From Owenia fusiformis (lineage: Eukaryota > Annelida > Polychaeta > Sabellida > Oweniidae), in NCBI GenBank assembly GCA_903813345.2, contig CAIIXF020000006.1, positions 26,915,936-26,979,935 of the forward strand: a DNA stretch of 64,000 nucleotides, in the 5' to 3' direction. The notes beneath the pieces were generated by a model. That model saw nothing but the letters and a program-made list of their open reading frames with translations, searched no databases and was not told where the DNA came from. Made by a program: the position numbers and the translations under genes. Shown piece by piece: positions 2,791-58,844 of the stretch; the stretch's first letter is position 1; the number at the start of each line of letters is the position of its first letter.

Positions 2791-3557
2791 CTGACAATGG
2801 CATATAAATGAAGGTTAACTAAATGTCAGAAAAAAGAATCTTGTAAATAGAAAAATGTGACCATATGCAATAAGGTTACTGTATACATGATTAAAGAAAA
2901 TACTAACAGACTTCCTAATGATTATGTACAAAGTGAAACTTGTTTCAAAATTGATGTGTCCCAAGATGCTAGTAAATAATTCACTAAGAGTAGAACAAAG
3001 ATTATTGTACTTGAAGCTAAATATAAAGTTTTAAGAGTTCAGATTTGAAATGCTTCTTAAAATTTATCATTGACTAGAGTCAGATTTTTTAATGTTATCA
3101 GATTGCATTCCAGATTAGAGGACCGGACTAATTGATTAAAGGTACATTCCTTGCCAGACCATCTCTCATCCTATATGGTAGCTTTAACCATATATAACAA
3201 AACATGTAACAAGGCATTAACATGACAAAATGCCACCAACTAGTTGCTCACAATATTATGAGTTCAAACTTCAGTCAGATTTGAATTTCTGAGAACTTGA
3301 AGATGATTTTGAAAAATAAATTGCTCAATTTAAAACAAATTGGAAAAATACCTTTTATAACCTTTTTTTTTACCTTGAAAGAAAATTGGAAAAATACCTT
3401 TTTTAACCTTTTTTTACTTTGAAAGGTCATCAAAGGTCAAATCCTAATTCCAGAGTCAGATTTGGGTGACATAAAAATGTTTTCATATTTCTAAATGATC
3501 AAAATTGACTTTATTAAAACATTTTCCTGTGTTTTGTTTACTATGGAAGAATATACA

Positions 3558-4424
3558 CAGTGTTCGCGCTAGCCATTTAAATTTCTGAGTCCCAGGGACG
3601 CAACACATTTGAAAAATGTGAGTCCCGTCTAAATTTTTGTGCGTCCCTCATATTTTGTTATTAAAGTGAAAGTAAAGTGGGCGATAATAGAGTGCTTCCG
3701 CTAAAACTGGATAAAAATGACATGTATTGTAATTCTATGCATTCTCCCGATAAATATCTATCATTTGGTTCTTTTCACACAATTCTTTACTAATGCTATA
3801 CCAAAATAATTCTCCGAAATGAATGAAAGAAATATTCAAATTAAGAGCTGTTTTCACATTTTACCAACCAGCGATCTTCAAGGTCGTGTCTAGGTCGTGA
3901 ACTTTTTGTTTCATTTTATAACATTTCTCCTTACTCTGACGACTTTTAGATGAAAAACGTTGATCTATCATTAAATAATTATATTGATGTATAACATTAG
4001 ATCGATATCTAACGGTTCCTAGTGGAAGTAATTAAGGTTATCGTGAAAAACAAGTCTCAATTCTCAATTTTGAAAATAATGTTTGCGTACAACAGATTAT
4101 CCAGCTTCGGTATACTCCGGAATGACTCGGAGGGCACCATAGCCAATCAAATGCTGCGTTTCAGACTAGAAACCCCGCGAATATACTGAGACACTTCGGT
4201 AGCCAATCGAATTTGCCGACATAAACATTATCGAGATCAAGGAAGTAGACGATTTGAAAATTCTTCAGAAAATCATGTTTTATCACTTCTACGCTGCAGT
4301 AAAAGTTACCTGATGGTGGTATAGAATCTTTGCGTCCCAAGGACGTAAGTTATTTCTGATTTTTCCGTCCGACCTCTTGAAATTTCCGTACAAACGAGAA
4401 AAAATGGCGTCAACGCAAACACTG
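3558..4424. mobile_element. CAGTG-ended TIR element, 5-bp target duplication
   Basis: The 867-bp element begins CAGTGTTCGCGC and ends GCGCAAACACTG-like (CAACGCAAACACTG). It is flanked by a perfect 5-bp direct repeat ATACA (3553-3557 and 4425-4429). GCGTCCC phrases occur near both ends in opposite orientation. No transposase remnant was recognised, so it is probably non-autonomous. Confidence 0.6.
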
Positions 4425-6819
4425 ATACAATATATATGATTAGAGCTACCATATCAGGATAGAAATGGTCTGGCCAGGAATGTCCCTTTAACCCCCTATT
4501 TGCTCCAGAGTCCAGAGTGGGCCACTAAGAGTGATTTCCATATCTTTGACAGGTTAAGTATAAAGTGACATTAGACCTTTAGATACTGACACATGTTCCC
4601 CGTTAAATATTCAATATTCAGAATAGGAAGTTCTTAATGCCATGTAAAAAGGAATACAATGAATTTGCTTAATACTTGAAGATTTACATTTGTTTGACAT
4701 GAGCTCAAAGACAAGTTGAACAGTGCTTGAAAGTCCTACATTATAATGCTTTACCTTGTTCAAGGAGTATTTTTACAATTAGTGTCGTTTTAAATATGCT
4801 CTTTGCATTCATAACTAATGAAGATGTAAGATTGAGACATTTTGGGAACTTTATAGTTGATTTGATTTATCAATTAGATTATATCAAGAAAAGGATGTGG
4901 AAATTGTGACATGTCCGACTTCACATTTGAAATGACGCACATAATGACAATTGACTAATGCGTTAATAGTCAAAATGCCCCTAGGCACGGTTTGATTTTT
5001 AACCTTCTTTTTTTTTAAAGTCAGGATGTCTACCTCAGGCAATAAGCACTCAGGGTAAATGTTAAGGCAGGCAGCCATTTTGGATTTTCCCTTCAATAAT
5101 ACCGTTTTTGATTTCTATTCATTTCTGCCTAAAAATAAGACGAATCTAATAAAAATAGACCTAATTTTGAAAAATAAGCCTTTTAGGAAAAAGGAACCTC
5201 AATATTTAAAAGTGGTCCATATTTCTAGGGCAACAAAATGGACTTTTAAGAAACATTTTTTTCTTCCTCCTGATTATATAATGTAAAAAAGTTGTAAATT
5301 TTTAACTTTTAAAATGCAAAATTTGGTTAAGGTAGAAAAATTTACCAAATTAAGAGGGAACCCCCTTAATAAATTTAATTGTACAGCCATTACCATTAAC
5401 ACTAGAATTCGGAAGAAATTCAATAGCTTTATCTAATAAGAATATTTCTGGGAATCCCTTCCTCCTTGCTGAACAAATGCCAAAGATCCCCACCTAGATA
5501 ACTTCAATCTATCAAATATCATTCCATCCATAATTGGAGGCCTAATGATACAAATTATTGTTTATATACGTAGTAATCTGTGGAGAACATGTGGTCATTT
5601 TGAATCAACCCACATGAGGCATGAAACTCACGTGGCAATCGTACCACGCGTTGCATACAGTCAGGTCAAATGTGGACCTTAATTATAATATGGTCTGTGT
5701 AAACTGCAACCAGACTCCCATTGTTGCTATAATTGGCTAGATAATAACAAGTTGTAACCAATAAGAGCCAGAGTATCTTGTAGTTTGCACACTTCAATTT
5801 TAATATCATTATCAGAACTCACCTTTTCTAAAAATACGTTGTCTTTAAGATGATTATTTTGCTTTGCGCTTGTTATGGTTGCTTAGCCCACTGGAGAACT
5901 CTGAGATCATATCAAGTCTGCGCTTCTTTTTTGGCCCACTGAACTTTCCGCTGCTACAACAGAATAAATAGACTATACTAGATCTTGATTTTAATGACAT
6001 CAAAAATGAATGATATCCCATTTAAAATCTACATACATTGAAGCAGTTTTAAAAATTGAATTTTGGAATTTTGAAAATATGCATAAGAATAATGTATATT
6101 GTATATATGAAGGTAGATTTTGTCAAGGGTCAGTTGACTAATTCTGGAAATGCTTAAATGCAAAACTATTTGAAATGCCCTTTTAAATTAAATAGATACA
6201 TGGATAAGATGAAAATGTTGAATCCTTGAAAAAGTCAGTACATTTTCACTTATTTTCATACATGTACTTAAAAAGTCAGCACATTTTTTAAGTGTATAAA
6301 TTCTTCAGTACACACATGAACTATTAAATATTCTTTCTAGTACAATTGGTATCCCTGAGTGATGCCTCTCATTCACGTTTTTGGACGGACTTCAATTTGA
6401 CATCCAAAGCCTAGAATTAAAACCAAATCCATGACTGAATAAATGAATGTAAGTCATTATAGCTTACACAACATGCATATTGCAGTTATAACCTCAGTAT
6501 TCATGATATTATAACTATAGATACTTCTAGAAAGTCATCTTAGGCTAAATAGTTTACAATCAAATAGCTTACACTACAAATTAAACTATTGTAATCCGGG
6601 GTGCATTAATTTGCAATGGAATTAAAAGGTTTAACCTGATAGCCTAACAATTATGGTACATCCATTCCTGAATGACATTATGCAATCATATTAACAGGGA
6701 GTTGTATGCCAATTTAAGGTTTTACATCCCTAAGCAATGTTATGAGAGACTACTGCACCAGCATTTTAAAATTTAGGTACAAATGTCTTACAGCATAGAA
6801 AACATACTGGTCAACAGAC

Positions 6820-10474: not shown

Positions 10475-10676
10475 CAGGCCCGTAGCCAGGGGAGTTCGAT
10501 GAGTTTGAGCAAACTCACCCCCTGGCCAAAAATTCTTTCAAAATCATGTAGTTTTTCACCATTCTGAGCACTTTTTAAGTGATTATGGCCAAATTTTGGA
10601 CCAAAATTGTCAAAAGTGAACCCCCTGGAATTTTTCAAAAAGTGAACCCCCTTGGCAAATCCTGGCTACGGGCCTG
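10475..10676. mobile_element. CAGGCCCGTAGCC MITE, copy 1
   Basis: Perfect terminal inverted repeats CAGGCCCGTAGCCAGG and CCTGGCTACGGGCCTG bound a 202-bp unit with AAGTGAACCCCCTTGG-type phrases. The flanks are CCTGG and CCTAG, a 4/5 match to a 5-bp target duplication. Related copies are at 34082-34268 and 39376-39552, and a partial one at 16326-16438. Confidence 0.75.
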
Positions 10677-10902
10677 CCTAGTAATGAATGATTATGGGTC
10701 TGAGCCCCAAACCTGTCTCTCCCCCATCGAATGCCAAAAGTCCTATTAGTTGAATGACTGATAGTCAGTTTGTTTGATACCCCTAACTAGAATAATTGTA
10801 GTACTGTACTACTCAATTTTCTCCCTGATGCATTGATAACTCCAAAATATATTTTGGGCTGTGTGATAAAAATGACGAGCAGAATATTTCGAATAGAAGC
10901 AA

Positions 10903-10908
10903 TTTAAT
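10903..10908 (-). terminator. Candidate DDX31 polyadenylation signal (ATTAAA)
   Basis: ATTAAA on the minus strand lies just beyond the minisatellite, about 1.08 kb past the DDX31 stop. If it is used, the whole tandem array is transcribed as the 3' UTR. Confidence 0.3.
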
Positions 10909-10927
10909 GTGACTGTTCAGTTGATTG

Positions 10928-11982
10928 TACAGAGTGTCCCAAACACAACAGGACTTGCTTCTTTTGGGACACCCGCTCCATGAACATATAAAACTGTGGA
11001 CTGTACAGAATGTCCCTAACACAACAGGACTTGCTACTTTTGGGACACCCGCTCCATGAAGATATAAAACTGTGGACTGTACAGAATGTCCCAAACACAA
11101 CAGGACTTGCTTCTTTTGGGACACCCGCTCCATGAACATATAAAACTGTGGACTGTACAGAATGTCCCTAACACAACAGGACTTGCTACTTTTGGGACAC
11201 CCGCTCCATGAAGATATAAAACTGTGGACTGTACAGAGTGTCCCAAACACAACAGGACTTGCTTCTTTTGGGACACCCGCTCCATGAAGATATAAAACTG
11301 TGGACTGAACAGAATGTCCCAAACACAACAGGACTTGCTACTTTTGGGACACCCGCTCCATGAAGATATAAAACTGTGGACTGTACAGAATGTCCCAAAC
11401 ACAACAAGACTTGCTACTTTTGGGACACCCGCTCCATGAAGATATAAAACTGTGGACTGTACAGAATGTCCCAAACACAACAGGACTTGCTACTTTTGGG
11501 ACACCCGCTCCATGAAGATATAAAACTGTGGACTGTACAGAATGTCCCAAACACAACAGGACTTGCTACTTTTGGGACACCCGCTCCATGAAGATATAAA
11601 ACTGTGGACTGTACAGAATGTCCCAAACACAACAAGACTTGCTACTTTTGGGACACCCGCTCCATGAAGATATAAAACTGTGGACTGTACAGAATGTCCC
11701 AAACACAACAGGACTTGCTACTTTTGGGACACCCGCTCCATGAAGATATAAAACTGTGGACTGTACAGAATGTCCCAAACACAACAGGACTTGCTACTTT
11801 TGGGACACCCGCTCCATGAAGATATAAAACTGTGGACTGTACAGAATGTCCCAAACACAACAGGACTTGCTACTTTTGGGACACCCGCTCCATGAAGATA
11901 TAAAACTGTGGACTGTACAGAATGTCCCAAACACAACAAGACTTGCTACTTTTGTGACACCCGCTCCGTGAACATATAAAAC
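10928..11982. repeat. 76-bp minisatellite, 14 copies
   Basis: The TGTCCC anchor recurs every 76 bases from 10935 to 11923. Units are nearly identical and mostly differ at fixed sites (GCTTCTTTT or GCTACTTTT, GAACAT or GAAGAT, CAGGACTT or CAAGACTT). The first four units alternate as two dimers, a higher-order pattern. Each unit holds TGTCCCAAA and TTTGGGACA, which can form a 9-bp stem, and one TATAAAA. Because 76 is not a multiple of 3, long overlapping open frames appear on the minus strand; these are by-products. The array ends at 11982, next to the DDX31 stop codon. Confidence 0.95.
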
Positions 11983-14900: not shown

Positions 14901-17900
14901 GGCGCCTGTTGCATTGTCAGTAGTGACATCTATTCTCTTAGGCTTAGTTAAACTCATCCCAGCAAGTTTTTCAACACCTGAAGATAATTAGATGAATCGA
15001 AACAATAATACAGATCAGATATACATAAATGACATGTACTGTACAACACTAAATATGAAAGAAAACTTAATATACAAAATAATTAGTGAAAGAACCTATT
15101 TTAGTTAAATATACACAATGGTGCAACTACGTACTGAAGCAAAAGTCATAGATATGTGTTGTAGAGAAGAAAAGTAAAATTAAGATGAATACAAAATAGT
15201 CAAATATAAAAACTGCTACTTTTGTGTCACTGGCAAAATGGCCAATGTACAGGGTGTTCCATATGTTTCAGGAATGATGCTATGTTTTATTGGTTTTCTT
15301 TTCAATCTAACTGAATTTTTGACACAATGTGTCTAAACATGTTTTGAATAAGTTGGGAAAGTTTCATATCGTGAAGTTCAGTAGTCTTAATTATATGGTT
15401 GCTATAGTAACCTAGGGGTAGGGTAGGTGGAGCAGGTGTAACAGCGCGCAAAATATAATGAAAAATTGGTAAAAAATAGTTTTTTGTACAAAGTGTGACT
15501 AGGTATTAGGTTGTCAGAGTTGGATCAAACTTGTCAGTAATTAAACAAAAATGGAGGTGGATTCCAAGAAAGTAAAAAAAATGTCACCACCGATGATCAC
15601 ATCACAATTTAAACACCTGTCATGTCATGAGTCACAATGGAGAATAAACACAGGTAATTTTGGACGAGCGGCCATCTTGAAAAGTGAAAAAGTCATTAGC
15701 AAAGGAAGACCTTCGACTTAAGGCATTGTGACACACAATAATCTGTGACAAGACATGACATGTGTGAATAACAGTTTTCTGCAGCAGACACAATTAAACT
15801 CCTAACGAAACCACATGGGGACTCAATGATGGTAACCTCTAGAGTGTACGAATGGTACAAGTGGTTCAAATCTGGAATGAAAACTGAGACCGATTATCCA
15901 AAATGTGGACATCCGAGAACAGTGAGAGCGCTAAATAATGCAGAAAGGATAGATGCTGAAATAATGATGATGGCTAATAAAGGGTGTAATAACATTTTTA
16001 ATTTCCAGGAATCCACCTTTATTCTTTTTAATTTCCAACAAGTTTGATGCGACTATGACAAATTCATACTTTGAACACTTTATACAAAAACTACTATTTT
16101 TACAAAAATGTCATGTTTTGTGCGTTGTTACACCTGCTCCACCTGCCCTACCCCTAGGTTACTATAGCAACCATATTATTCAGTCTACTGAGTTTCATGA
16201 TATGAAACTTTAACAACTTATTCACAACATATTTGGACACATTTTGTCAAAAAATCAGCTAGATTGAAAAGAAAACCAATAAAATACAGCATCATTCCTG
16301 AAACATATGGAACACCCTGTATCTCACGCACGTAGCCTTTCTGGGCACCTTTTAAGGGCCAAAGTTGTCAAAAATGAACCCCTGTGATTTTTTGAAAAGT
16401 GAAACCCCTTGGCAAAAGCTGCCTTAATGAGCCTTGCCCTGGTCTCTAGATTTAGTCCGTGAATTTACCTGATGATAGGGTGGCAGACAGCAATATAGTC
16501 TGCCTTGATGCTTGTTGTTTCTCTGTGATAGCATGAACAATACTAGAGACATCTTTCTCAAACCCCATATCTAATAACCTAGAAGAAAACACAGAAAGGG
16601 CATTAATGTGCAAAATGTCACTACCTGCCATTTGTTACAGACACCAACCGTTGACTGTTGAACACCAACAGCCAAACACCAACCATTGAACACTATCCAC
16701 AAAAAAGCTACAATCATATGTGACCACACTACATGATTGTGGCACCCTGTGTTGGTGACATAACAAAACTGAGCAATCTATGGCAGAGGTTTCAAAAGTT
16801 TAGCAATGTATTTGAGTTCTGATAGTGAAATTCACAGAAAAGCAAGAGAATTAGATGAAAATTGTCGAGCTTATGACTTCTAATTTATATGCACTTTAAT
16901 CTAGTTTAGTATTGCGATACTTACAAGTATCACTTATTTCTTACCTATCAGCTTCATCTATAATGAGATACTTGATCCTAGAGAGTGATAAAGATTCTGT
17001 ATTCTGTATGTGGTCCAATAATCTACCAGGGGTACTGATTAGTATATTGATGCCTTTGCGTAATCTGCAAAAAATATGATACAGTAAGACATCTTAACAT
17101 GTTTCATTTGGGAGGTGTTCCACTTACAGACATACGAGCGTATTTAACATTATATCATGTCATTTGATCATTGGACTCATTTGGAAAGTGTTTCATTTAA
17201 GGAGGTTTCCACTTTACAATACTGTACATGAACAAATATGATAGGTGTGGGGATGACAACAGCAACATTTTTAGAGAACTTGGTTCGATTGGATAATGAT
17301 GCAATGTCAGCATATGTTCATCCTTTCTATATTGAATTTATGTTGTTTAATTACACAGGAGGAGGGAAATTAGAGCAACAGATTTTGGACAGTCATATGT
17401 TGGATTTTGGCCATTTCCTGGGGATTTAAACAGGTGCATATGTTAGGCTAATGCATTACCTCCAGGAAAAACACTTCTAGAGATGATAAAATAATTTCAA
17501 CTTTGAGATAGGGTAGATGCTAACAACCCACCCGCATGTTTTTTCTGAAATGTTTTCCTGATTTTCAACCCCTTCCATCCCTGCTTTTTTAATTTTTAAT
17601 TTTTCTTGCATCAATATGTTGCATTTTGACACACAGTTAATCCCTTAAAAGGAATAAGTGATTCCTTTTAAATAAAGTGGAAAACAATATTTCCCATGTT
17701 ATTTTCCCATAGGGAAAAATCATTGCTTTCAGCTAAATTTGGTCATTGGTATCTTAAAAACACCTGAAAGAATCACTTAGGCCATAAGAAGTAGATTCTT
17801 TGTTTTGCGTCCCCTTGCTTGCACGATTTTGAGTAAATCAGAAAAAACAAACACATTCAAATAGCAATAACAAGAGTCTGAAAGTACCATCGCATTTCGT

Positions 17901-39800: not shown

Positions 39801-42800
39801 CAATGATAGTGGGGTGTTCACTATACAGGCCAGTGCACATCCTAATCAATTGAAAGAGCTTATAGAAGTAATTGTCATTGAGCTAGCACATACCAAGGGT
39901 CACGTTGCCCAAGTAAGTAGTATAGTTAAACCTGTATTCTTAGGATAAAAATATCCCAGCCAGTTGGGACATGTTCCACTTACAGAGGGTCATTTAAGTC
40001 AATTGGTCTCTGGAGTCTCTAAAAAGTCCCCCGAGACCGTCCTAATCATGGATGTATTCTACCTACTACCAACAGAGGTTTTTACTGGTTTTTATGTCAC
40101 CACCACTTTGGTGATGACATTGTTATGGTCTCTGTTTTTTTTTATTTGATTGTCGAAAGTCAACGAAATGAGACAACTATTCTTTTAGAGTTCCATAGGT
40201 ATGTTTTCAAGATAGAATATGATAAAAAATTGAATATGTTTCTCTGTTTCAGAGTGAACTTGGTAGAGCTAAGAAGCAACTACAGTCCATGTTGTTAATG
40301 AACTTAGAGTCGAGACCTGTTGTATTTGAGGACATTGGCAGACAGGTCCTATCTCAGGGAAAGAGGGAAAATGCTGAACATTACCTTGATGAAATAGGTA
40401 AGTTTAAAGATCAGGTCATAACTTCGGATCTTGAAATCAAAAATAACTTTGTATATTTGATAACCTAACTCCTATCATCAAACTAATTCCAATCATCAAA
40501 AATAATCTTGCAGAGTATACTTTCAATTTCCGAAGGAAATCACTTCCAGTTAATATAATTTCGCATGATATAATCAGATTGCAGAAACAGCGGTTAAATA
40601 GCAGTCTTGCTAGTTCACTGGGGAGTATCGTGATGCAACAACACCGTGTTGTTGCATCAAGATGGCCAGACTTCCGGTGATAGATTTTCGTACGATATTT
40701 TGTTTCCCCAATTAAACCCCTTTCTAGGACGAGTTGCTCAATAACAATACACGTGCAGTTAGCGCATGATCTATATTTAAAGAAACTGTCATTAGTATAC
40801 ATGTACCATCACCAAGAAGCAATTAGTTCACGGTTTTAGTTCCTCACTATTGATGCAACAACACCAGACCGAAGATGCAACAACACTCCTCTAGATTTGA
40901 GCAATGATGCAGCAACACCAATTAATAGTATCATTTCAGAAGACCATAAATCTCGAGAGGAACAGATTTTTAAATGCTACTATTGCAACACCGTTACCCA
41001 TTACCCATATTTGCGTTCTTCTCAAGGCATTCAAAATACACGTCTGCGGGCGAAGATCCTTTATATGTATTTTCACAAATTTATACTTTTAAATATTATA
41101 ATGTACTGGACGTTGTTCTATAACATAGTTCAATCGCCTTTAACATGGCAAGCTTTAGTAAGCCAATCTATTTTCATAAACCACTGTGTTCCATGGCTTG
41201 ATGACCCTGACTCCAGTCAGTATCATTCAAAATGGTGGACAAACATCTTTCGTTCTCGGTAAACATGATGAGCTATTGGAAATTATCTATCATCCATCTG
41301 TGGAACAGTGATAAACTACCTGTAGCGTTATTGCTCTCTTTGGATTCCTTCTCTCTGACTGAGTAAAAAGGTAAACAAAAGTGATAAGATTTAGGGCCCA
41401 AAAAGGTAAATTTATAGGGGTACAGTTATCCCAGATATCCCGGGCCCTCGGGAAATATCATATTGTCTCTCGGAATAAAACCAATATTGAATCCCTCTCA
41501 GTAAATAACCTTTATATAATAGCATTGTATAACTGCAATATCATTAAACCAACACTCATCCTATACAACTCTTGAGAACGATGTACAACTCCTGGATAGC
41601 GTAAACTCCTGAGCAGCGTATACAACTCTTCAACTTGATATATGACATCATACTTTGGGTGGGATAACAAAGGATATACAATATACAATTGTAGACCTCT
41701 CTTGAGGTCAACTGGCAAAATTGTATACCGATACTGTAAACCTTGAAAGTAACGGCGTACTCGTTAGTGAATTAATGTTAATTTTAAGTTTCTATTTGTA
41801 TTTTTGCTATACTTGTCGCCTAGTAAAGTCATTTTCATCAACGTTTACAAAATGCCCGTCTTCCATGTTTTTTTTTGTGACGTCATGAAACTTTTTTTTC
41901 AGAAGTAGCGGGCAACAGTACATAATTTTGACCGCTCCGCTCACCCAATCAGAATTGAGTATTTCAGTTGAGGTTCTAACAATACATTTTGTTGCCCGCT
42001 CGTCAACCAATCAGAATTGAGTATTTCAATTGTGGTACTAACAACACAAAATGACTGATATCTGTTGTCTTTCCAAAATTATATTAGTTATTTGTAAGCA
42101 ATTTCCATACGGTAAATCAAGGGCATTTAATTTAGAAAATGTATAATCTTTATTTTTCAGATACAATATCAATGAGATTGCCTCCCGGGGATTTTGTACT
42201 TTATTTAGTTTGCCTTGTACTATATCCTTTTAACTTTGATATAGACAAAGAAACCAAACAAAATACGTTTCGTTCATGGACCACTGACCCACGCGTTTTA
42301 TTCATGTCCCGACCTACACCAGTAAACAGAACATAAAACAGTTCCTCTTGTTGTTCAATGATACATTATATTGGCGTTTTTGCATCAGCACATTGGTGTT
42401 GTTGCATCATCGATAAGAAACAGAGTGGTGTTGTTGCATCAATAGTGAGAAATTAAAAACACAAATTTATCGCTTCTTGATGATGCTACGTGTATACAAA
42501 TGACAGTTTTTTAAAATATAGATCATGCGCTAACTGCATGTGTATGATTATTGAGCAACTCGTCCTAGAAATGGGTGTAAATTGGGAAAATAAAACATCG
42601 TACGAAAATCTATCACCGGAAGTCTGGCCATCTTGATGCAACAACACGGTGTTGTTGCATCACAATACCCCCCAGTGTAGTTGCTACACAATTATATCAA
42701 AACGTGAAAGTGAACTAAAATATCTACATGTATGTATATATATTACATACCTAGAGAAGCATTTGTATTGAAGCCTATGGAGTTAAAGGTATTCTGTATA

Positions 42801-43691: not shown

Positions 43692-46320
43692 TGAACCTCT
43701 GTAAGTGGAACACCTCCCAAATGGAACACTTTTTAGTGGAACCAAAGGTTCAGGTTTTACACTACTTGTATGTGAATATGTAGAATTATGGTCCCCTAGG
43801 GATTAAGTCTCTCCTTTGTAGTATTCGCTTGACTGATTTGAATATATAGTCCATTTGTCATTTTCTTAACGTATGAATATTTAAAAACATGATGTTTTTC
43901 TGTGCAAATACTATCATTAGGATTTATTGGAGTGATTTAGCTGGGTTGCCAAAAAATTAATGTTGTGGAAAATTTTTGTATCTATCACCATGGTAACATA
44001 CCAGGTACATGGTGGTATCCCAACGCTAAGTCAATAGTCAACGCCATGTTAAGCCAATGCACCCCTCCCTAATTAGCCGATATACTTTTTTCCCCAAACT
44101 AACTTTTTGTCCAACCCAGTTAAATCACTTCAGAAAACCCTTGTTATTTTAAATTAACCATAAAACATCGTGTTTTTAACAATTCATAGGTTCACTATAG
44201 TATGTATAGGGGTGACAAATGGACTAATAAAGATATAAGGAAGTTAGTTGTAACTAGGTCCCTGGAAAAACCAATTGAGAGGTCAACAGTTATCCCAGGG
44301 TGCCATAACATTATTAGTATATGTTCACATGCTATCTTAACCTCATTAACATGACATTGTTGGGAGATTATTTCCTTTCTCCACTCATAATCAACACTTG
44401 GTTATTTTGTCATTGTATTGAATTCATGTAATATTGATATTCTAGGATGAACAAATTTTTTACATCATGTACATGGCAGTTTTTCTAAACAATGAACAAT
44501 TGTCTATCCATAATTGTGTTCTCAGGAGGTAAGCTTAAAATATCAATGTGTCTTCCTCTTCAGTAAAACTTGGAGAATATGAACATTGAAATGGCATCAT
44601 TGAAATTGATATTTCAATGCTTTTAGCCTGATGTTAGTGAGGCTTAAGCCCTGTCCCCCTAAACTAAATTAGCTTAAAGTCCCCGATAAATCGGGCTACG
44701 TATACCGCCGTGTTTACATTAGGGAATTAGAAGAGTTTATTTTTATTTAGGTATGCAAACTATATCAATATTAGGCCTTCATTCATGTACTCGTGTGCAT
44801 GTAATCAGCATGCCCTTCAATATTATGTAAACCAGGCTATTCAAGTACTACATAATGTACACTATTTATGTGTGTACTACATGGGAATACAATTCCCTGG
44901 GAAACAAAACACAAATACTTTTTATATGTTCAAAATGAGCCATTCGATTGATACATACACTAAATAACATCTACAAAGTATATCTAATAGTAATTTTAAT
45001 TTCAATGGTGAAACTTACTTGGTTACGATTATACGGTGAATCAACACGGAACGAAGATTGTTCACCTTCCTGGCTTACCTCTGCCTGTACCTGGTAATCT
45101 CTTTATATAGCGAGAGCGGTGCACCTGCGCAGTTTTAAACTTTGGCGCACACTTTAAGGGAAAAATAACACATTGATTTTTAACTCATCTGATTAGAGGT
45201 CATTGTATTTGGTTTGCATATAAAATGCAATAACCTGTTCAGATGACATTGTAGGCTCTCCATCATTGAATAATAAATCTTTGGATGACAGTTGTGTAGA
45301 CAGAGATGTTCTCTGTGAATTATGAATAATGAATTTAGCTTCTATTTATCTATTAAGCCATGTTGCATTCTCTTTTTATGTTCGATGATTTATCAACTGG
45401 ATTGCCTACATTTAAGTTTGATTAAAAGAGCATCATGGATTTAATATGAAAGAAGCAAATAGGTAGAAATTCAATGTAGACTTAATGGAATAGCTTTTAT
45501 TAAAACTGTGTACAATGGTGTCATTTCGCAAGCTTACATTAACTCAGCTTACCTTAACCTGTTGTTTTTAATGTTTCACAATTACTATGAAGTTATTATT
45601 TGGTAACCATGGCAATGTAACACTCACATATGATAGGGATCACATGCATTTGCTAGACCTTCAATGTAATGTCAAAAGCAGTAGCCCTATTAGTCAAAAA
45701 CGCACAATGGTATCATATTTTGAATAAGGTCCCATAATTTTTTGTAGTTTGTGTCTTTTATAAAGGCATGTGTCATGTGTGATTTATAACAATGAATTCA
45801 AAAGTATGTGTGCAATTTATGTTTTTCATCTACACAAAATAAATTAGCAAAATTTGTGAAAATGTCTATAAGAATCAATTGAAGTTGTGTCTGTAATTTG
45901 GTAGGGTCTGTTTAAATGTGTCATACGATTACACACTACACAGAGACATATAAAATGTTTCATATGTCTCTGGATTACAGAATAGTATAGTTTCCATATA
46001 GCTTTTGAAATCTCGCTAAATCTCGTTTTTCGTGAGATTTTCAGAGACTTGTATATTAGACCTCTAATGACTTACATTACCTTCTTTTAAATGGCATATT
46101 TGAATTCATTGAAATGTTTTCTCCAATAGCTTTGATTTACACAGTTATATAATTTGAATAATTTTCTATGACAATTTAAAAAACTTGGGCCAGATGTCCA
46201 TATCACAACATGTACATAAACAGAGTCATCATGTGGTATATCATTCAAGTTTTATGCAGATTCAACTAACACACTTTGATAAATCATGAAATTAAGCCAC
46301 TTTTCCAAGATTTTAGCATG
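43692..46320. other. Intergenic, no gene recognised
   Basis: AT-rich DNA between PMPCA and the palindromic mariner derivative. Bases 43700-43760 (TGGAACACCTCCCAAATGGAAC) match the complement of part of 17110-17140. Bases 44245-44300 match the edge sequence at 35110-35145 (TAGGTCCCTGGAAAAA). No splice-bounded coding segment was found. Confidence 0.5.
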
Positions 46321-47358
46321 TACAGGGTGTCCAATAAATAAGGTAAAAGATATTGTAACTTTCTTAATATTGCACCAATCTTGATGAAATTTTCAGGGTT
46401 TGTAGCCCAAACCTTTTTACCTTTATTCTGTGAATTTAAAGCGTCTTCTATTTGATTGGCCAGAGTTGTGGTTGCTATAGCAACCGAAACAACAAAAAGG
46501 CGGGGCAAGTTTGTTTACGTCACAACTTTCCAAAACATATGTATTCTTTCTGATAGCTTTATTCATACCCCGTGTCTATTACTACCACAAATACAATATA
46601 AAAACAGTCCTTATGTCCCATTGTTATGAAAATAAGCTATTCAATATAATGTCCATCTCTAGCTATACAACTTCTTATGCCTATTCACCCACTCTCTAAA
46701 CACACTTTCAAACCCATTTTTGCCCATTTCCTGAAGTCTTGCTAAGACATGTGATCTGACTTCATCAGTACTTCCAAATTTATTTTCTCTCAAGTCTAGA
46801 GTTCTGCATATAAATAAAAGTCATTGGGTCCAAGGTCTGGGAAATATGGAGGGTGTCCAAGTAGGGGTAGCCCCAGTACCCTAATAGTTTCACTAGTGAA
46901 CATAGCTGTGTGTGAACTCAGATCACATGTCTTAGCAAGACTTCAGGAAATGGGCAAGAATTGGTTTGAAAGTGTGTTTAGAGAGTGGGTGAATGGGCAT
47001 AAGAAGTCGTATAGCTAGAGATGGACATCATGTTGAATAGCTTGTTTTCATAACAAAGGTACTTTAAGACTGTTTTTTATATTGTATTTGTGGTAGTAAT
47101 AGACCTTGGAGTATGAATAAAGCTATCAGAAAGAATAAATATGTTTTGGAAAGTTGTGACGTAAACAAACTTGCCCCGCCTTTTTGTTGTTTCGGTTGCA
47201 ATAGCAACCACAACTCTGGCCAATCAAATAGGATACGCTTTAAATTCACAGAATAAAGGTAAAAAGGTTTGGGTTACAAACTCTGAAAATTTCATTAAGA
47301 TTGGTGCAATATTAAGAAAGTTACAATATCTTTTACCTTATTTATTGGACACCCTGTA
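46321..47358. mobile_element. Palindromic mariner derivative
   Basis: TA duplications flank CAGGGTGTCCAATAAATAA and its complement. Inverted homology continues through almost the whole 1.03-kb element, including TTGGCCAGAGTTGTGGTTGC, the ACGTAAACAAACTTGCC region and an inner TGAAGTCTTGCTAAGACATG segment. Both arms therefore carry the end of a transposase frame that reads outward. It is recognisable as VRSHVLARLQEMGKNWFESV followed by FREWVN, the C-terminus of mariner transposases. The catalytic region is gone. Confidence 0.8.
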
Positions 47359-47553
47359 TGTGAACGGAACTCTAGCCCAAGTTAAAAGCTGAATAAAAGA
47401 TGGCAGCACTAGATTTCATTGATTTTTCTGCCATTTAGAAACTATCCTATTGTATGGATCATGTTTGTTTGGAGCACCTTGGTTTTATAAATAAACCGAA
47501 AAGCGGTACGTTGTTGTACACACATGTTTGGTTTATTGATTTATTTATTGATG

Positions 47554-47660
47554 TACAGGGTGTCCAAAAGAACAGGAATGAAGAAAAGTTGAATAACTCG
47601 GTCAATATTGCATATTTTGCCTTGAAATTGTCTCAGGTCCTGTTTTTTGGACACCCTGTA
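47554..47660. mobile_element. 103-bp mariner-type mini-MITE
   Basis: TA flanks CAGGGTGTCCAAAAGAACAGG and its complement CCTGTTTTTTGGACACCCTG. The first 11 bases of the end are the same as in the 46321-47358 element, so one transposase may have moved both. Confidence 0.75.
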
Positions 47661-48242
47661 CATTTGGAGCCAGTTAGAAAAGTATTCTTTTTAGCCAATG
47701 AATTAGAAATGAGTAAAATGGATAGAGCCGAGTTGAAAGCAAGACCTTGAAAAAGTGATCAGTTTTTGGCAATGATATTTATTTTTTAGCTCTCATGTCA
47801 TGTCTATTTTCCTTGTCCAATAGATTTGACTTTTTCCATTTATTTCGAATAACCCTTTCTATTAAATTATTTAAGGTAATTGTGCAATAGTTCTGAAAAC
47901 TATTTTTCCCCTTTTGAATTCTCCTTTGACATATTTTGCCGAAATACTGTAGCAAAATGATTTTAAAAAAGCTTTGGAAAAGATTTGGAAATCGTGTGCA
48001 TTACTCCTTTGAACGAGTCCCCTTAAATGTTGAATGAGTCCCCTTAACGGTTTTTAACACAACTGTGTCAGGTTCGACTGTCTCACAATCAATGCCCCCA
48101 GCAAGACGAGCATTAACGTTATAGATATTTATGTTAGTAAGCAGAGAGAATATGTTCACCGTGATGTCATAAGTTTTTAGAAATATACATGTCTAGTGTA
48201 TCCAAATTTTAAATAAGTGAAACACGATAACGGGACTAATTT

Positions 48243-49721
48243 GTGATGGTTTCCATATCTAAAAATCATATTTTGATCATCAGTATTTTAGTTCTAGTAT
48301 CCACTGTAGGGATGTTAATTCAGTCAGGATATACTGAATATATTTCAACGACATTCTTAATACAGGCTAGATATCCAAATCTGGTAATGTCTCAACCTAA
48401 ACGATATCGTAAACAAGAGGTGATTCCATCAAAATTAGCAAAAGATGAGCTAATTTCAAGTGATCAACCAAAAGATATGAAAAATGATGAAGAGCATGTG
48501 CCAACGACCACAGTTCAAAATAACACGAAACTGACAACACTGGAACCATCTACGATGAGTGAAAGTCTTGAGTCAGAAACGATGACATTTAAAGAGTTAC
48601 CAACACAATTGCCAAAGTTATTGCTAAGCACCTCGACAAGTAATAATGAAATAACACAGGCTCGCAAGGTGGACTCAGACAAATATATCGTATTTTTGTG
48701 TGGTGAGGGCATGTTGTGTGGAGGATTAGGAGACAGGTTGAAAGGAATACAAAGTACATTTCTCCTTGCATTGATGCTAAAACGAAAATTCCGGATTATT
48801 TCTACGATACCATGTGATTTATACAATCAACTTGGAGAAAACAGAGAGCCATGGCATCGACCAATCCCTCCTGGTCTGAAGAGCAAAACTTTAAGAATGA
48901 TAAATGGGCACAGATCGTGTGGATATCAAATATTTGGGAAAATAAATGGAACAAACATGAACATTGATGCTAAATTCCCAGAACCTGTTATAAGAATAAG
49001 AACTAATCAAGAATGGACGCCAAGATTCCACGAGGAGCCCTATAAAACAATTTTATCTGATCTTGGTTTAGATATATCAAATTTTACAGAAAAGTACTTG
49101 TTCTCAAAAATATATGATCATTTATTCAAACCACAACCAAAGATTCTGGCATTGTTTGACAGATTCTTGAGTAAGGCCAGACCAAAGCCTGGAATCAAAC
49201 TAGTTTGTGCTCAAGTAAGGAAGGGGGCTAACCCATCAATACCAAGAGAATCATCCAAGAGAATAAGAAACTATGACGAATGGCTACCAATTCTTTGGGA
49301 TTTCTTATCTTTATATAACGACTCGTCAAAATATACTATTTTCGTAACAACTGATTCTCAAGAAATACGAGAACATTCACAAACGCTTTTCCCTGATACT
49401 ATCATAGACACGGAGGGAAAAATCACCCATGTTGATAGGTTTGATAACAAAGATGATGCTTGTAAGGGAATGGAAAAAACAATCCTAGACTTCACTATCC
49501 TTGCCAACTGTGACATAACGGTTGTTAGTAGAAGCAACTTTGGGAAACTTTCCTCGCAGCTTCAGTCCCCGGCATCCAAGTTGTATACATTTCAGCGTGG
49601 GATACTCCATGAGGGACCAGAGGGTAACCAAGTTGGCAAGGTGTTCAACAGAACAACTAAAGCATTCACAGATGATTGCAGCAACGTACAATGTCCCCAA
49701 TCTAGAAATATATGTACTTAG
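48243..49721 (+). CDS. Intronless NodZ/FUT8-like fucosyltransferase-type membrane protein (492 aa)
   Basis: Likely Golgi type II glycosyltransferase. Residues 9-26 form one hydrophobic anchor after a short N-terminus. A Ser/Thr-rich stem reaches to about 145, and a globular domain follows. The domain opens with VFLCGEGMLCGGLGDRLKGI; GGLGDRLKG (160-168) is the motif that introduces the sugar-nucleotide fold in NodZ/FUT8-type fucosyltransferases. VRKG (325-328) stands where that superfamily has a basic donor-binding motif. IFVTTDSQE (366-374) and SRSNFGKLSS (429-438) fit the later part of the fold. Sequons NNT, NGT, NFT, NDS and NRT and a Cys-rich tail support a luminal domain. The second codon is also ATG; either could start. 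Donor, acceptor and exact linkage are not predictable. A single exon among intron-rich neighbours suggests a retrocopy or an intronless family. No canonical AATAAA was seen soon after the stop. Confidence 0.75.
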   Translation: MMVSISKNHILIISILVLVSTVGMLIQSGYTEYISTTFLIQARYPNLVMSQPKRYRKQEVIPSKLAKDELISSDQPKDMKNDEEHVPTTTVQNNTKLTTLEPSTMSESLESETMTFKELPTQLPKLLLSTSTSNNEITQARKVDSDKYIVFLCGEGMLCGGLGDRLKGIQSTFLLALMLKRKFRIISTIPCDLYNQLGENREPWHRPIPPGLKSKTLRMINGHRSCGYQIFGKINGTNMNIDAKFPEPVIRIRTNQEWTPRFHEEPYKTILSDLGLDISNFTEKYLFSKIYDHLFKPQPKILALFDRFLSKARPKPGIKLVCAQVRKGANPSIPRESSKRIRNYDEWLPILWDFLSLYNDSSKYTIFVTTDSQEIREHSQTLFPDTIIDTEGKITHVDRFDNKDDACKGMEKTILDFTILANCDITVVSRSNFGKLSSQLQSPASKLYTFQRGILHEGPEGNQVGKVFNRTTKAFTDDCSNVQCPQSRNICT

Positions 49722-49934: not shown

Positions 49935-50213
49935 TACAACAGTGGCGGATCCAGGAACCAAGAAGGGGGGGGGGGCAAAGTTCCGGTCATAGAAAAAAAA
50001 ACTTCCGCGGAAAAAATTGTGGGCCCCTAAAACCGAAAAGTGGGCCCAAATTTTGAAATTTCGAGGCCCATTTTCTTCAAAATTTGGCCTGAAATTAAAA
50101 AATAAGGCCTTAGAAGGCCTAGTAATGACCATAAAGGACCATTTTTTGGGTCCTTAAGGCCTTTTTTGGCCCAACATTTTTGCCCATGCTCCCCCGGATC
50201 CGCCACTGTACAA
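49935..50213. mobile_element. CAGTGGCGGATCC MITE, copy 1
   Basis: The 269-bp unit (49940-50208) starts CAGTGGCGGATCCAGG and ends GGATCCGCCACTG. It is flanked by TACAA on both sides. The interior is made of GGCCC/GGGCC phrases and a G-run near 49965-49977. Similar copies are at 50860-51080 and 57586-58839. Confidence 0.8.
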
Positions 50214-50859
50214 TGTTTTCCTAATAAGCTGCCTGTTTGTGTTGACGTGGCCAGAGACTATTTTTTGTCAGGCCTATTTACTTTTTCATGATTTCATTTG
50301 AAATTAACAATCCACAATTCACATGATTTATTCACGTACATTTATCTAATGAGTTAAAAAACATTTTATCGGTTGTGATATGTGTTTATGTCAAGCCTAA
50401 TGGAAAGAAAGGCATGATGCATCTACGCAATGGCATCGCCCCCATTCTTGCATCCAACATTGCGCTCACTGAGAATCTGTGTTATACTGTACATATTTTG
50501 TTTTATGGAGATTATCAAGAAGCCTACCCTGCGTGCAGAGTCTAGTTAAACTACGAAGTTAAAGACGAAGCTCTCTTTTAAGAAGTGAAGTCAAACGAAT
50601 GCAAAGGGTACAAGAAGCAGTGAACTGGTTGGACAACGGAAGGGTCAACCAGCTTATCTTTTGGCTCGAAAGGATGCTGTCCAGCAGGGGTATTACATGT
50701 ACATATATGTAATTCAAAGATTAATTGATGACTTGTAATCAAGAGCTTTAATAGTATTCAGAAAGTACAGGTCCATAATATACTGTGACAATTTAGCTCT
50801 TTCAAATGGTGATGAGCTTTGTTCTATCACTATACCTAAGATTATTATACCCCAAAAAA

Positions 50860-51080
50860 TTGTTGAGCCAAAAAAGGCCTTCAGGTCATTACTGGGCCTT
50901 TTAAGGCCGTATTTTCTAATTTCAGGCCAAATTTTAAAGAAAATGGGCCTCAAAATTTCAAAATTTGGGCCCACTTTTGGGTTTTAGGGGCCCAATTTTT
51001 TCCCCGCGAAAGCGCGGAAGTGTTTTCCTCTGACCTGGAATTTGGGCCCCCTCCTTGTTGGTTTCCAGATCCGCCCCTGT
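50860..51080. mobile_element. CAGTGGCGGATCC-type MITE, copy 2 (inverted, eroded)
   Basis: Reads as the complement of copy 1: AAGGCCTT, TTCAGGCCAAATTTTAAAGA, GGGCCCACTTTTGGGTTTTA and the end CCAGATCCGCCCCTG. The outer left end is lost. Confidence 0.6.
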
Positions 51081-51836: not shown

Positions 51837-53587
51837 ATGGCAACCCAAGTAAGAGGAATACAGGATGAGAAACCATGGTTTTACACAGCAACAGGACTTT
51901 TAGGCGATAAACGTGACACAATGTTGGACAATCAACTTTTGTTGAGGGTGAGTTCTGATTCTGAATTTCCTTCACAGTGATTTATAGGCTTATCAGTGGT
52001 GGCCACCTAGATTCAATGGGTCTTACTTCTGGACCTAATAATTCATCTTAACTTAGTTGCAAGGTTACATGAACATTAAATAATCATCTACACTAGATAG
52101 TGATTTTGTAAGCCTGTGCTCTGATAGAGCCCATGACATGCCTAAATGTAAACTGCACTTGGTTGGCAACAGACAACATCATATTTTGTAGGGAGTCTCA
52201 CTAGACCATCTGTCAACTTAAAACTAATGTTTTTATTTTTGATTACAGCCCGAGCTTGGTCGTCCACTAGAGAGGGGATACTCTGTCCCTAAAAGCTTTA
52301 CATTTGGTCGACCAAATGGTCTGAAAGATGGTGGAGCATCAGAGGCACTTCGAGGTTGGACCAGTTCAATCACACTGCCTTTACACAGACAGAAAGAACT
52401 TAAAACAGAAAGAGACTTTATAGGACTTAACAAAGCAGCTGTTCAAGCTGGTCTTATCTCAGCCCCAGAACAATATCACTTTAGAGCTTCACATGATGTC
52501 AGAAGAAATGTTGCGACAGAAGAAAAGAGTAAAACACGATCCAGACGGTTACCACCCACCATGGTGTTTGGTATATCAACAAGGTAAGCCAAATATATCA
52601 ATGCTTTAAATATGATGATATTTATTTACAAAACTAAAGCATTAAATGGTATGACATTTTATATAAAGGATCTAAACATTTTAATATTCTTGCATCAAGC
52701 CCTTTGCTCCACTTTCAGTTTTCTAACTGGTAGAAGGAAAAAAGGGATGACTTTATACAGAACTATTGAATAAATCTGTTCATGTAATGACCCACTGTTG
52801 AATTATAACTGTATCATAAAACATATGTTCACAGGGATTAATATTTTTATTTATATTTCAGACCTTCCACTCCAGTATTCGACCTTCTAGAACACAAATA
52901 CCAAGATAAATGGCTAGCAGAAAGACGAGCGGCTGATCTAGCCAAGCGAAAGAATGAACAAGACACTAAAAGAACCACTGGGAAAGTTTATGAAACTAGG
53001 GCTTCCCTTCTTAGAACATACCAAAATCCAGTTGAACCAGCTCCCTTATGGCAGATGCCCAGATTCAGTAGAAATGTAAGTTCCACCTATATTTACTTTC
53101 CTGAATAATCGCAATATTAACATTTTAAGTTTGCATCCCCTTGACAAGCTGACAAGTATAAACCAAAAGTTTTCAAATTTGGTACATGGAGTTTAATATT
53201 TTTTTTTGTACATTATTTATTTGGCAAATATCTGGGATGTAAAATAGACATGTATGTAGAGAGGGCATCATTACCAACTTTGGCTTAAAATAAAGGTTAT
53301 TTAAAGAATGATGATGACATATGATAGTTACATTTCATTTTTTGGAAAAATAAAGACAAGTAACAAAACAAATATCAAAAATATGTAATGAAATCCTGAT
53401 TTGAATGTCAATGTATTAATTGAACAAAAATTGAACATGCACAATTTTATATTTTCAGGCCCATCCACACTTAGAAACATTCCGTAATGACAATCTCAAA
53501 ACATCTGCATTCAAACACCATGAAAGTGATGGTATTTCAAGGAAAGGCGCATTTGCACATGGAATATATGAGCCAGCCAAAAGTTAA
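51837..53587 (+). CDS. CFAP77: CFAP77, cilia- and flagella-associated protein (4 exons, 262 aa)
   Basis: Axonemal protein; family members bind the outer doublet microtubules. Exons: 51837-51947, 52249-52583, 52862-53075, 53459-53587, with GTGAGT/GTAAG-type donors and AG acceptors, phases 0, 2 and 0. The protein opens MATQVRGIQDEKPWFYTATG. It has no signal peptide or membrane segment and is rich in basic and polar residues, as microtubule-bound structural proteins are. Diagnostic stretches are GYSVPKSFTFGRPNGLKDGG, GLISAPEQYHFRASHDVRRN, FGISTRPSTPVFDLLEHKY and LWQMPRFSR. The length is near that of the human protein (under 300 aa in its shorter form). The start is the first ATG after an in-frame-poor leader, in an AAAAATGG context. 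A candidate X-box lies upstream. The alternative, another short axonemal MIP, is less likely given the linkage to DDX31. Confidence 0.88.
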
Positions 53588-55706: not shown

Positions 55707-55739
55707 ATCACATACTTTTCGTATTTTGTTCACGTATGT

Positions 55740-56805: not shown

Positions 56806-56829
56806 TTTTTGCGACGCAGGCCTAAAGAT

Positions 56830-57080: not shown

Positions 57081-57580
57081 ATTTCATATTAAAGAGTTCA
57101 ATGACCTGCAAGCTATTTGAACTGATATTAACAGGTGATGTTTTTTCCTTAATTTGTCTTAAATTCTATTTTACTATGTCTCCCATCAGTTGGACATAAA
57201 ACAAAACATTTGAGAATTATACATCAGTTCCACATGCCTTGCTATTGATACACGCTATACTGTTTGAATGTTCTTCACTTTTTTTTCGTTTAACATATTG
57301 TGATTGGCCGAGAAGTCAAAGTTTGGGAGAGAAGCATGTGTTCAATATTCCTTATCAGGACCACAGGTCGGTCACCAATATGTAACATAAAATTCCTTAT
57401 TTGAATCACATGTTACAAAATTAGAATGTTGAGTTGAGTTGAGTTCAGCGACTGAAAAGCTTTGACATTTACCATAATATCTACCTGTACATTGTATATC
57501 GCGACCAGTCAAATGATTGCAGATTTTTTCTCTTACCTCTTCCACTCTAAATTATCAAAAGCACACAAAATGTATAGACA

Positions 57581-58844
57581 CTATTCACTGGCGGATCCAG
57601 AATATAGCGTGTGGGGGGATGGGCACATCTCAAGTCAGGAAAAAATGGCCGGCCCCTAAAATTAGGTCTTAATTTTGAAAATATAAGGCCCATTTTGGAA
57701 AGGACGATTCTCGGTTTGGAGAACGAAGTTCTTCAATCTAAATGAGCATTATCCCTGTTTCGGACAAATTTGATTTTTTACATAATATAGATTTGAATGT
57801 TTTCTTTTGAATAGTCATAATTTAATTTGGGTAATATTTTTAGATTTTTCGCAAAAAAATATTAGCGCAGTACACTGATGAACTTCTTTCCCAAAAATCA
57901 AGACTTTATTTTATTGAATCGGTCTAATTGAGTATTATCCCTGCTTCCGACCAATTTGTTATTTTTACATCTTGTAGATTTAAATATCCTCTTTTGAATA
58001 TTCATAGTTTAATTTGGGTAATATTTCTATTTATCCCACGATTAATGTGTTATCTGTACAATAACAGCTGTTGATACTTCTGATATTATTGAAATCCGTG
58101 TGATATTTTCCAGAAAATCGTTTATCAAACTCATATGCGTGTGATATCGTTTATCTCACGCATATCCGTGTGATATCACATTTGCATTTCGCGCCACAAT
58201 ATTGTTGGAAATTAGGTCAGATAATTTATTCTCTTTTGAGAAAATAGGTCCATTAATTTATTCTCTTTAAATTTCATTGGTGTATTGAATAACGATTGTG
58301 TATATAATTTGATTAGAAGGCTGCTAACTTACGATTAAAAAATGGTATTTATGACGAACTATATCATGTTATTTACTTTTAATTGTTAAAATAAAGTGTT
58401 TCAAATATTCAATTGATATTCTAATTTCTAGTTTATATTGTCTGCCAATGTCCTGGAAATTGGATCAGAACATCACAAGGTGATTGTAATCATGGGATAA
58501 ACCCAATATCACATAATTTCTCGTGATATCATTTTATCGCCTCGTAGATATCAAATATCAACACTCATTCGCTTCGCTCACTCGTGTTGATATTTGCTAT
58601 CAACTCGGCGATAAAAATGATATCACTCAAAATGATGTGATATTCTGTATATTTTTCATGAAAAAAATTATTAGCCCAGGAGACTGTTCTCCAAACCGAG
58701 AATCGTCCTTTCGCCCAAAAAGGCCAAGTATGCTCAAAAGGCCCACTTTTTGAGGCCTTACAAAATATTTTTCTGGGCCCATCCAAAGGGGGGGGGGGGG
58801 GGGGTGGCCGGGCCCCATGCCCCCCTGGATCCGCCAGTGCTATT
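57581..58844. mobile_element. CACTGGCGGATCC MITE, copy 3, split by a later insertion
   Basis: Outer ends CACTGGCGGATCCAG (57586) and CTGGATCCGCCAGTG (to 58839) are flanked by CTATT on both sides. The body has the GGCCC phrases of copy 1 and a long G-run at about 58787-58804. It is interrupted between CCCATTTTGG and GCCCAAAAAGG by another inverted-repeat element. Confidence 0.75.
57697..58713. mobile_element. 1-kb TIR element nested in copy 3
   Basis: Perfect 23-bp inverted ends, from GGACGATTCTCGG to TTTGGAGAAC. Inside, an about 190-bp unit (ATTATCCCTG, ATTCATAGTTTAATTTGGGT) is duplicated directly at about 57738 and 57928, and many GATATCA/TGATATC palindromes follow. No transposase was seen. 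Confidence 0.65.

Follow-up and report, generated by a model that had tools for sequence, protein, structure and literature searches.

Eight insertions flanked by 5-bp direct repeats lie within the window analysed here, a 64,000-nucleotide stretch of the Owenia fusiformis genome. All eight had been listed in a sequence-only reading of this DNA and all were found by script, with the duplication exact in seven and matching at 4/5 positions in the remaining element (E2). They are given here with their ends, duplications and, where scored, the match between their terminal inverted repeats (TIRs).

E1, 3558-4424, unstranded: 867 bp; ends CAGTGTTCGCGCTAGCC / CAGTGTTTGCGTTGACG; duplication ATACA at 3553-3557 and 4425-4429; TIR 12/16.
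E2, 10475-10676, + strand: 202 bp, family A; ends CAGGCCCGTAGCCAGG on both sides; duplication CCTGG/CCTAG; TIR 16/16.
E3, 26664-26953, unstranded: 290 bp; ends CACTGGTACTCACCTA on both sides; duplication ATATA, exact; TIR 16/16.
E4, 34082-34268, + strand: 187 bp, family A; duplication ATATA, exact; TIR 16/16.
E5, 39376-39552, - strand: 177 bp, family A reversed; ends TAGGTCCAGAGC / CAGGCCCGTAACC; duplication AATGT, exact.
E6, 40616-42677, unstranded: 2062 bp; ends CACTGGGGAGTATCGTG / CACTGGGGGGTATTGTG; duplication TAGTT, exact.
E7, 49940-50208, + strand: 269 bp, family B; ends CAGTGGCGGATCCAGG / CAGTGGCGGATCCGGG; duplication TACAA, exact; TIR 15/16.
E8, 57586-58839, unstranded: 1254 bp, family B-like; ends CACTGGCGGATCCAG on both sides; duplication CTATT, exact; TIR 15/16.

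The same reading had described at least five different TIR sequences with CAG/CAC ends throughout. Five terminal sequences were confirmed, with CAGTGGCGGATCCAG and CAGGCCCGTAGCCAG as end strings belonging to these families, while CAG or CAC stands at both ends in seven of the eight elements and E5 begins with TAG. Specifically, E1, E2, E4 and E7 carry CAG at both ends, E5 carries TAG/CAG, and E3, E6 and E8 carry CAC at both ends, with heptamers CACTGGT, CACTGGG and CACTGGC. The first five end bases are CAGTG in E1 and E7, CACTG in E3, E6 and E8, CAGGC in E2 and E4, and TAGGT/CAGGC in E5, and in all but one of the five terminal families the ends start with CA[G/C]TG.

Relationships among the copies fix several of the element edges. 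The three family A insertions, one of them reversed, occupy unrelated sites, are about 79-80% identical and lose homology at the ends given above, with duplications matching at 5/5, 5/5 and 4/5 positions. E2 and E4 are 79.9% identical with homology ending at the TIRs, and E5 matches them at 78.7-79.1%, with local matches reaching within one base of the 39376 end and the full family A alignment spanning both of its ends; without gaps its TIRs match at only 7/16, and the duplication was used to locate the right end. The inverted match of E2 could extend two bases outward, where no 5-bp repeat is found, and its edge is fixed because the family A alignment sets the ends. Three partial relatives of these families were also found.

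Lone family A end, 2382-2405, + strand: CAGGCCCGTAGCCATAT.
Family A fragment, 16339-16424, + strand: 79-80% identity to E2, E4 and E5.
Partial inverted copy of E7, 50852-51079, - strand: 79% identity; outer end CAGGGGCGGATCTGG; other end missing.

The lone end has no convincing partner within 6 kb, the best candidate with a TCAGA repeat being a 6/13 end match at 2825. In family B, E8 matches E7 at 71.2% over 66 columns, and their left ends have 12 bases (TGGCGGATCCAG) in common after position 3, preceded by CAG in one and CAC in the other; the third base therefore does not divide the set into two superfamilies. The inverted match of E7 could extend one base outward, again to an edge without a 5-bp repeat. 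A single 1140-bp element at 49940-51079, with the duplication TACAA/TAGAA (4/5), was also considered, but 49940-50208 is preferred as the likelier reading, with 50852-51079 as a partial inverted copy, because only the shorter interval combines two TIRs with a duplication that is exact.

Inverted repeats of at least 14/16 occur in six of the eight elements, and among these the duplication is an exact 5-mer in five and matches at 4/5 in one. One reading is chance, with inverted pairs selected for happening to carry a flanking 5-bp repeat. The window was compared with Markov-2 controls. It contains 98 pairs with YA[GC] ends and a TIR of at least 14/16, six of which have a direct repeat of at least 5 bp, namely five of the eight elements and one pair within a long palindrome (46666-47011). 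Longer palindromes account for 71 of the 98, which extend outward with at least 6/10 outer bases paired; among the remaining 27 the 5-bp repeat is present in five. At the same threshold, the 40 Markov-2 windows yielded 292 pairs, none of them with a direct repeat of at least 5 bp, and at a TIR of at least 13/16 the control gave 6 of 2795. Two random window positions have the same 5-mer with P = 0.0018 and match at 4/5 or better with P = 0.0225. Together with the three copies of family A, the control refutes chance for the whole set, and we give that reading next to no weight, though the risk is real for E1 on its own.

The signal is present only at TIR thresholds of 13-14/16 and above. A duplication-length scan without an outer-edge filter was swamped by the inner parts of long palindromes, and with the filter (L=16, TIR at least 12/16) 18 exact 5-bp cases were found, while three Markov controls gave 14, 23 and 12; because of this resemblance, no signal can be read at low TIR thresholds. 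The filter discards 49940 and 10475, and the accompanying L=12 scan had no control. E1 is the weakest of the eight and taken alone lies within chance, because TIR matches of at least 11/16 with YA[GC] ends give 9 exact 5-bp repeats in the window and 47 across 15 Markov-2 windows, an average of about 3. When the first 88-120 bp of opposite ends, TIR included, were aligned for six elements (all except 10475 and 34082), the score exceeded the best of 300 shuffles for 40616 and 26664, and did not for 3558, 39376, 49940 and 57586. As a separate observation, E1 and an element at 29052-29918 are both 867 bp long and have a common core (72.8% over 125 columns; local score 71, where 40 shuffles reached 50.5 at most), while their ends are unrelated and their duplications are 5 bp and 6 bp, respectively.

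The length of the duplication is consistent across the set. Comparison of 8-mers at the boundaries gave 4-8 mismatches in every one of the eight elements, whereas 5-mers gave none in seven and one in the eighth; exact direct repeats of 6-12 bp were found at the boundaries of 0/8, and the two ATATA sites (E3 and E4) match at 3 bp as well as 5 bp. Pegasus-like MITEs of the silkworm are hAT-type elements. Four of them, BmMITE-13 to -16, have ends (CAAGGGCGGATCCAG, CAGTGGCGGATTA, CAGTGGCGTACCTA and CAGTGGCGGATTT) close to those of E7 and E8 and a similarly small size (263-431 bp), but their duplications are given as 8 bp (PMC2997013, Table 1). The eight insertions could by analogy be ordinary 8-bp hAT elements in which 5 bp is only apparent, through mutation or misplaced ends; given the 8-mer mismatches and the ends set independently in family A, we consider this highly improbable.

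All eight inserts are apparently non-coding and MITE-like, from 177 bp to 2.1 kb. Six-frame Pfam scans covered the three largest elements (E1, E6 and E8). No hAT or RAG1-like domain was found in those frames; E1 (stops as X) and E8 had no Pfam domain at E<=1, and the best value in E6 was E = 0.061. The hAT domain was likewise found in 0/43 window ORFs of at least 85 aa and the RAG1-like domain in none of the window ORFs scanned; the ORF at 40840-41262 within E6 gave only sub-threshold Pfam matches (best E = 0.025), and neither an Rfam search nor a comparison of a 493-aa ORF with the PDB gave a match. Copy scans covered viral and prokaryotic collections only, with end patterns of families A and B. 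Exact patterns matched 41 (CAGTGGCGGATCCAG) and 32 (CAGGCCCGTAGCCAGG) loci in viral contigs and at least 120 loci (CAGKGGCGGATCYAGG) in prokaryotic genome contigs. These matches were taken as chance; a search within 6 kb of the 193 loci listed for an inverted partner of at least 13/15 gave four pairs, all of them lacking a matching 5-bp duplication. The hAT dimerisation domain (Dimer_Tnp_hAT, PF05699) was sought in a prokaryote genome alongside 14 control genomes; it matched nowhere, and the search was uninformative.

The sequence-only reading had named two sources for a 5-bp duplication, a hAT subgroup and RAG/Transib elements. Non-autonomous Transib/RAG-like transposons would account for the duplication length and for the CAC at both ends of E3, E6 and E8. 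However, in ProtoRAG the first CAC triplet is described as essential, the heptamers are CACTATG/CACAGTG, and the duplications of ProtoRAG, Transib and RAG are GC-biased (PMC8289069). Here, five of the eight elements start with CAG or TAG, no element carries a CACTATG/CACAGTG-like heptamer, and the duplications are AT-rich (G+C 9/40, in a window of 34.9% G+C). This option is disfavoured for these reasons and, with the RAG1-like domain absent from the scanned stretches, we regard it as improbable. The hAT option stood, as families with 5-bp target duplications have been named hAT5 (Kapitonov & Jurka 2007, as cited in PMC12730594) and placed in an animal lineage with Blackjack and other animal hATs (PMC12730594). 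The eight elements resemble hAT5 in duplication length, terminal inverted repeats and animal lineage, and differ in that a transposase was recognised in none of those scanned. The name also has other senses, including hAT5_DR within the Buster family (PMC3517528) and an element hAT-5 with 8-bp duplications (PMC6004678); hAT-hAT5 is listed as a Hydra transposon family (PMC12220107). Excerpts of PMC3630058 contain nothing on 5-bp hAT duplications, and PMC5063351 and PMC2289841 contain one end string alongside transposon terms.

Other transposons share the window, including a mariner with transposase homology, TACAGGGTGT-ended elements and two others whose candidate duplications are 6 bp long. 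The suggestion that one transposase group has been dominant here is thus weakly supported and too strong. A CACTG-ended candidate is listed separately.

X2, 31425-31932, unstranded: 508 bp; ends CACTGCCCCCAG / CACTCCCCCCAG; TIR 13/16.

Its duplication is the 6-bp AATAGC, or the 5-bp AATAG if an extra terminal C is assigned to the element, and its ends are no more similar than in the top-scoring one of 300 shuffles. With its CACTSCCCCCAG ends and 6-bp duplication it could belong to hAT6, for which 6-bp duplications are cited (PMC12730594). It is seen as one copy with a TIR of 13/16 and lies outside the 5-bp set.

Several unrelated transposases with a 5-bp staggered cut could also have moved the five terminal families, the common length being partly coincidence. 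The five terminal sequences, the little internal similarity between families, the other transposon groups in the window and E6, with inverted arms of about 320 bp (83% identity) and very different subterminal repeats, all fit this reading. Set against it are the CA[G/C]TG start in four of the five families and, to our knowledge, the rarity of 5-bp duplications among eukaryotic DNA transposon superfamilies, and we consider it unlikely.

The best explanation builds on the ends, inverted repeats, 5-bp duplications and family relations observed here: the eight inserts are probably non-autonomous cut-and-paste elements whose movement depended on one or a few hAT5-like transposases acting in trans, where we infer the putative hAT identity only from the ends and the duplication length. 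Against this reading count the CAC and CAGGC ends, which depart from the usual hAT start (C/TARNG), the 8-bp duplications of the silkworm families with similar ends, the uneven spread of GGCC and the absence of a hAT domain from the stretches scanned. Subterminal motifs cluster in E7, E8, family A and E6. GGCC occurs 8 times in E7 (0.46 expected), an unremarkable 4 times in E6 (3.5 expected) and not at all in E1 and E3, while the 300 bp at either end of E6 together hold nine copies of GATGCAA. The transposase may bind the short TIR together with these clustered motifs, which are rich in GGCC in family A, E7 and E8 and consist of GATGCAACAACACC in E6, and the repeats would have a role in recognition. 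It would then excise the element and join its ends to two target strands 5 bp apart, and host repair would fill the 5-nt gaps, giving the 5-bp duplication.

The insertions resemble passengers of a hAT branch that is known but has been little described and, as elements, like ordinary eukaryotic MITEs. Tentatively, hAT-type duplication length may be uncoupled from end sequence in this lineage, where ends close to those of silkworm MITEs with 8-bp duplications are used with 5 bp and the neighbouring X2 shows 6 bp, a possibility we consider less likely than not. Five non-autonomous terminal families with one duplication length form a clean, testable set. It bears on two questions: can families that differ in their ends be moved by one transposase lineage, and is hAT duplication length set by the transposase or by the end sequences? 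Should all five be served by one 5-bp transposase, the length of the duplication would depend on the transposase alone and would mark which transposase moved which non-autonomous family.

A sequence-only reading of the window had proposed eight insertions that carry CAG/CAC at their ends, lie between 5-bp duplications and represent no fewer than five terminal sequences. The left ends were found in place in all eight elements (named here by left-end position), seven of which carry an exact 5-bp duplication, while in element 10475 four of the five bases match; comparison of 8 bp at the same boundaries gave 4–8 mismatches in every one of the eight. Right ends were located by script, as a downstream reverse complement of the left end or as a duplication adjoining a CTG, GTG or CTA end. 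That of 39376 was located via its duplication, with a terminal inverted repeat (TIR) match of only 7/16, and this element starts with TAG, departing from the CAG/CAC pattern. The original observation is otherwise correct and careful, and the element class is an ordinary one.

Elements with 5-bp duplications (TIR scores are matched terminal bases)
3558-4424: 867 bp; TIR 12/16; exact duplication
10475-10676: 202 bp; TIR at least 14/16; duplication 4/5
26664-26953: 290 bp; TIR at least 14/16; exact duplication
34082-34268: 187 bp; TIR at least 14/16; exact duplication
39376-39552: 177 bp; starts TAG; TIR 7/16; exact duplication
40616-42677: 2062 bp; TIR at least 14/16; exact duplication
49940-50208: 269 bp; TIR at least 14/16; CAG at both ends; exact duplication
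57586-58839: 1254 bp; TIR at least 14/16; CAC at both ends; exact duplication

The best single evidence that the 5-bp duplication is real comes from three separate insertions of one family (family A: 10475, 34082 and, reversed, 39376; 79.9% and 78.7–79.1% identity), in which conservation ends at CAGGCCC...GGGCCTG, the flanks are unrelated and the duplications match at 4/5, 5/5 and 5/5 bases. Membership of this family offsets the poor TIR and TAG start of 39376. A fragment at 16339-16424 is apparently also family A, as is a lone end at 2382-2405 (CAGGCCCGTAGCC) with no convincing partner end.

In six elements (10475, 26664, 34082, 40616, 49940 and 57586) the TIRs score at least 14/16, so that the ends are placed independently of the duplication, to 1–2 bases at 49940 and 10475; five of these six duplications are exact 5-mers and one matches at 4/5. 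The probability that two positions drawn at random from the window share a 5-mer is 0.0018, rising to 0.0225 for a match at four or more of five bases. Among the 98 window pairs with CAG, CAC, TAG or TAC starts and TIRs of at least 14/16, six had a direct repeat of at least 5 bp, comprising five of the eight elements and one artefact within the long palindrome 46666-47011. By the rule used, 71 of these 98 pairs extend outward into longer palindromes, including 10475 (6/10 outer bases paired), and a 5-bp repeat was present in 5 of the 27 pairs left after their removal. Random control (Markov-2) windows, which are free of real palindromes and transposons and hence control for chance alone, gave direct repeats of at least 5 bp in 0 of 292 pairs at TIRs of at least 14/16 (40 windows) and in 6 of 2795 at 13/16 or more.

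At TIRs of at least 11/16, exact 5-bp repeats are frequent by chance (nine in the window versus ~3 per Markov window; 47 in 15), and element 3558, with a TIR of just 12/16, is therefore not established on its own. Of the five GGACGCA and four GCGTCCC motifs in the window, three of each kind lie in the end regions of this element. Another 867-bp element at 29052-29918 (ends CTAGAGGTGTAACTC, TIR 15/16, candidate 6-bp duplication AAGGGA) has a core with 72.8% identity to that of 3558 over 125 columns, and the ends of the two are unrelated. End-region alignment, TIRs included, exceeded shuffles for 26664 and 40616 only, among the six of eight elements tested. A possible alternative makes element 49940 the left arm of a longer unit of 1140 bp that runs to 51079 (TACAA/TAGAA); the 269-bp reading is preferred as simpler.

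Six-frame Pfam searches found no transposase in the three largest elements (best E = 0.061, unrelated), and the other five are below 300 bp and too short to encode one; the elements are thus read as non-autonomous. Across all 43 window ORFs of at least 85 aa, curated cut-offs were exceeded by one mariner spread over two ORFs, by a CFAP77 gene and by pieces of a helicase C-terminus and an M16 peptidase, with hAT and RAG1-like domains absent at any reported score. No element was present at the 193 listed loci from viral and prokaryotic collections with exact end strings of family A or family B (49940, with 57586 being family B-like). The CFAP77 matches fall in two exon-like ORFs at 52243-53108 (E = 1.3e-28 and 4e-06) and suggest that the DNA comes from a ciliated eukaryote. 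A 493-aa ORF at 48240-49721 has sub-threshold fucosyltransferase similarity only (E = 0.12) and no PDB match, and a tandem repetition at approximately 10813-11950 (76-bp spacing) holds an open frame of 174 aa for which Pfam gave no convincing match.

Most likely, one or a few trans-acting transposases of hAT5 type would bind the short TIRs together with clustered subterminal motifs, excise the element and insert it with a 5-bp stagger, the ends and duplications being directly observed. Putative motifs of this kind include GGCC, which occurs 8 times in 49940-50208 (0.46 expected), 9 times in 57586-58839 (2.1 expected) and 4, 4 and 2 times in the family A elements (0.3 expected each), with none in 3558-4424 or 26664-26953, and GATGCAA, found nine times in the end regions of 40616-42677.

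The sequence-only reading had allowed, besides a hAT subgroup, a RAG/Transib-type transposase, for which CAC/heptamer ends, GC-biased duplications and a RAG1-core transposase would be the features; the first two are not seen in this set. ProtoRAG reportedly depends on the first CAC triplet, and its heptamer is CACTATG (RSS consensus, CACAGTG; PMC8289069), whereas five of the eight elements start with CAG or TAG and the CAC ends read CACTGG. A GC-rich target of 5 bp is described for RAG (PMC11844651), and GC-biased duplications are reported for ProtoRAG, Transib and RAG (PMC8289069); those found here are 9/40 G+C in a 34.9% G+C window. The preferred hAT assignment has precedent in families designated hAT5 for their 5-bp duplications, which are placed, with the 6-bp hAT6 families, in a lineage containing Blackjack and other animal hATs (PMC12730594).

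A core, TGGCGGATCC, is common to all four ends of 49940 and 57586, indicating that CAG versus CAC is within-group variation. Pegasus-like silkworm MITEs are hAT-type, consistent with 8-bp duplications. Their ends (CAAGGGCGGATCCAG, CAGTGGCGGATTA, CAGTGGCGTACCTA and CAGTGGCGGATTT) resemble those of 49940 and 57586, although they duplicate 8 bp rather than 5 bp (PMC2997013).

Other transposons and candidate elements in the window
37453-38735: mariner; perfect 40-nt TIRs; Transposase_1 homology (E = 1.6e-19)
15248-16321 and 46318-47663: TACAGGGTGT/TACAGGGTGTYCCA-ended elements with long inverted arms
31425-31932: candidate element; 508 bp; ends CACTSCCCCCAG; 6-bp duplication AATAGC

The mariner transposase is split over two abutting ORFs with a stop between them which, together with the perfect repeats, suggests that the element is probably young but broken. 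The elements with long inverted arms resemble Tc1/mariner-type non-autonomous elements. Candidate 6-bp duplications occur at two single elements, 29052-29918 and 31425-31932, the latter possibly hAT6-like. The proposal that one transposase group has been dominant is weakly supported: mariner, TACAGGGTGT-ended and candidate 6-bp elements co-occur, and among the types resolved in the window the 5-bp group ranks first in frequency without being the only one.
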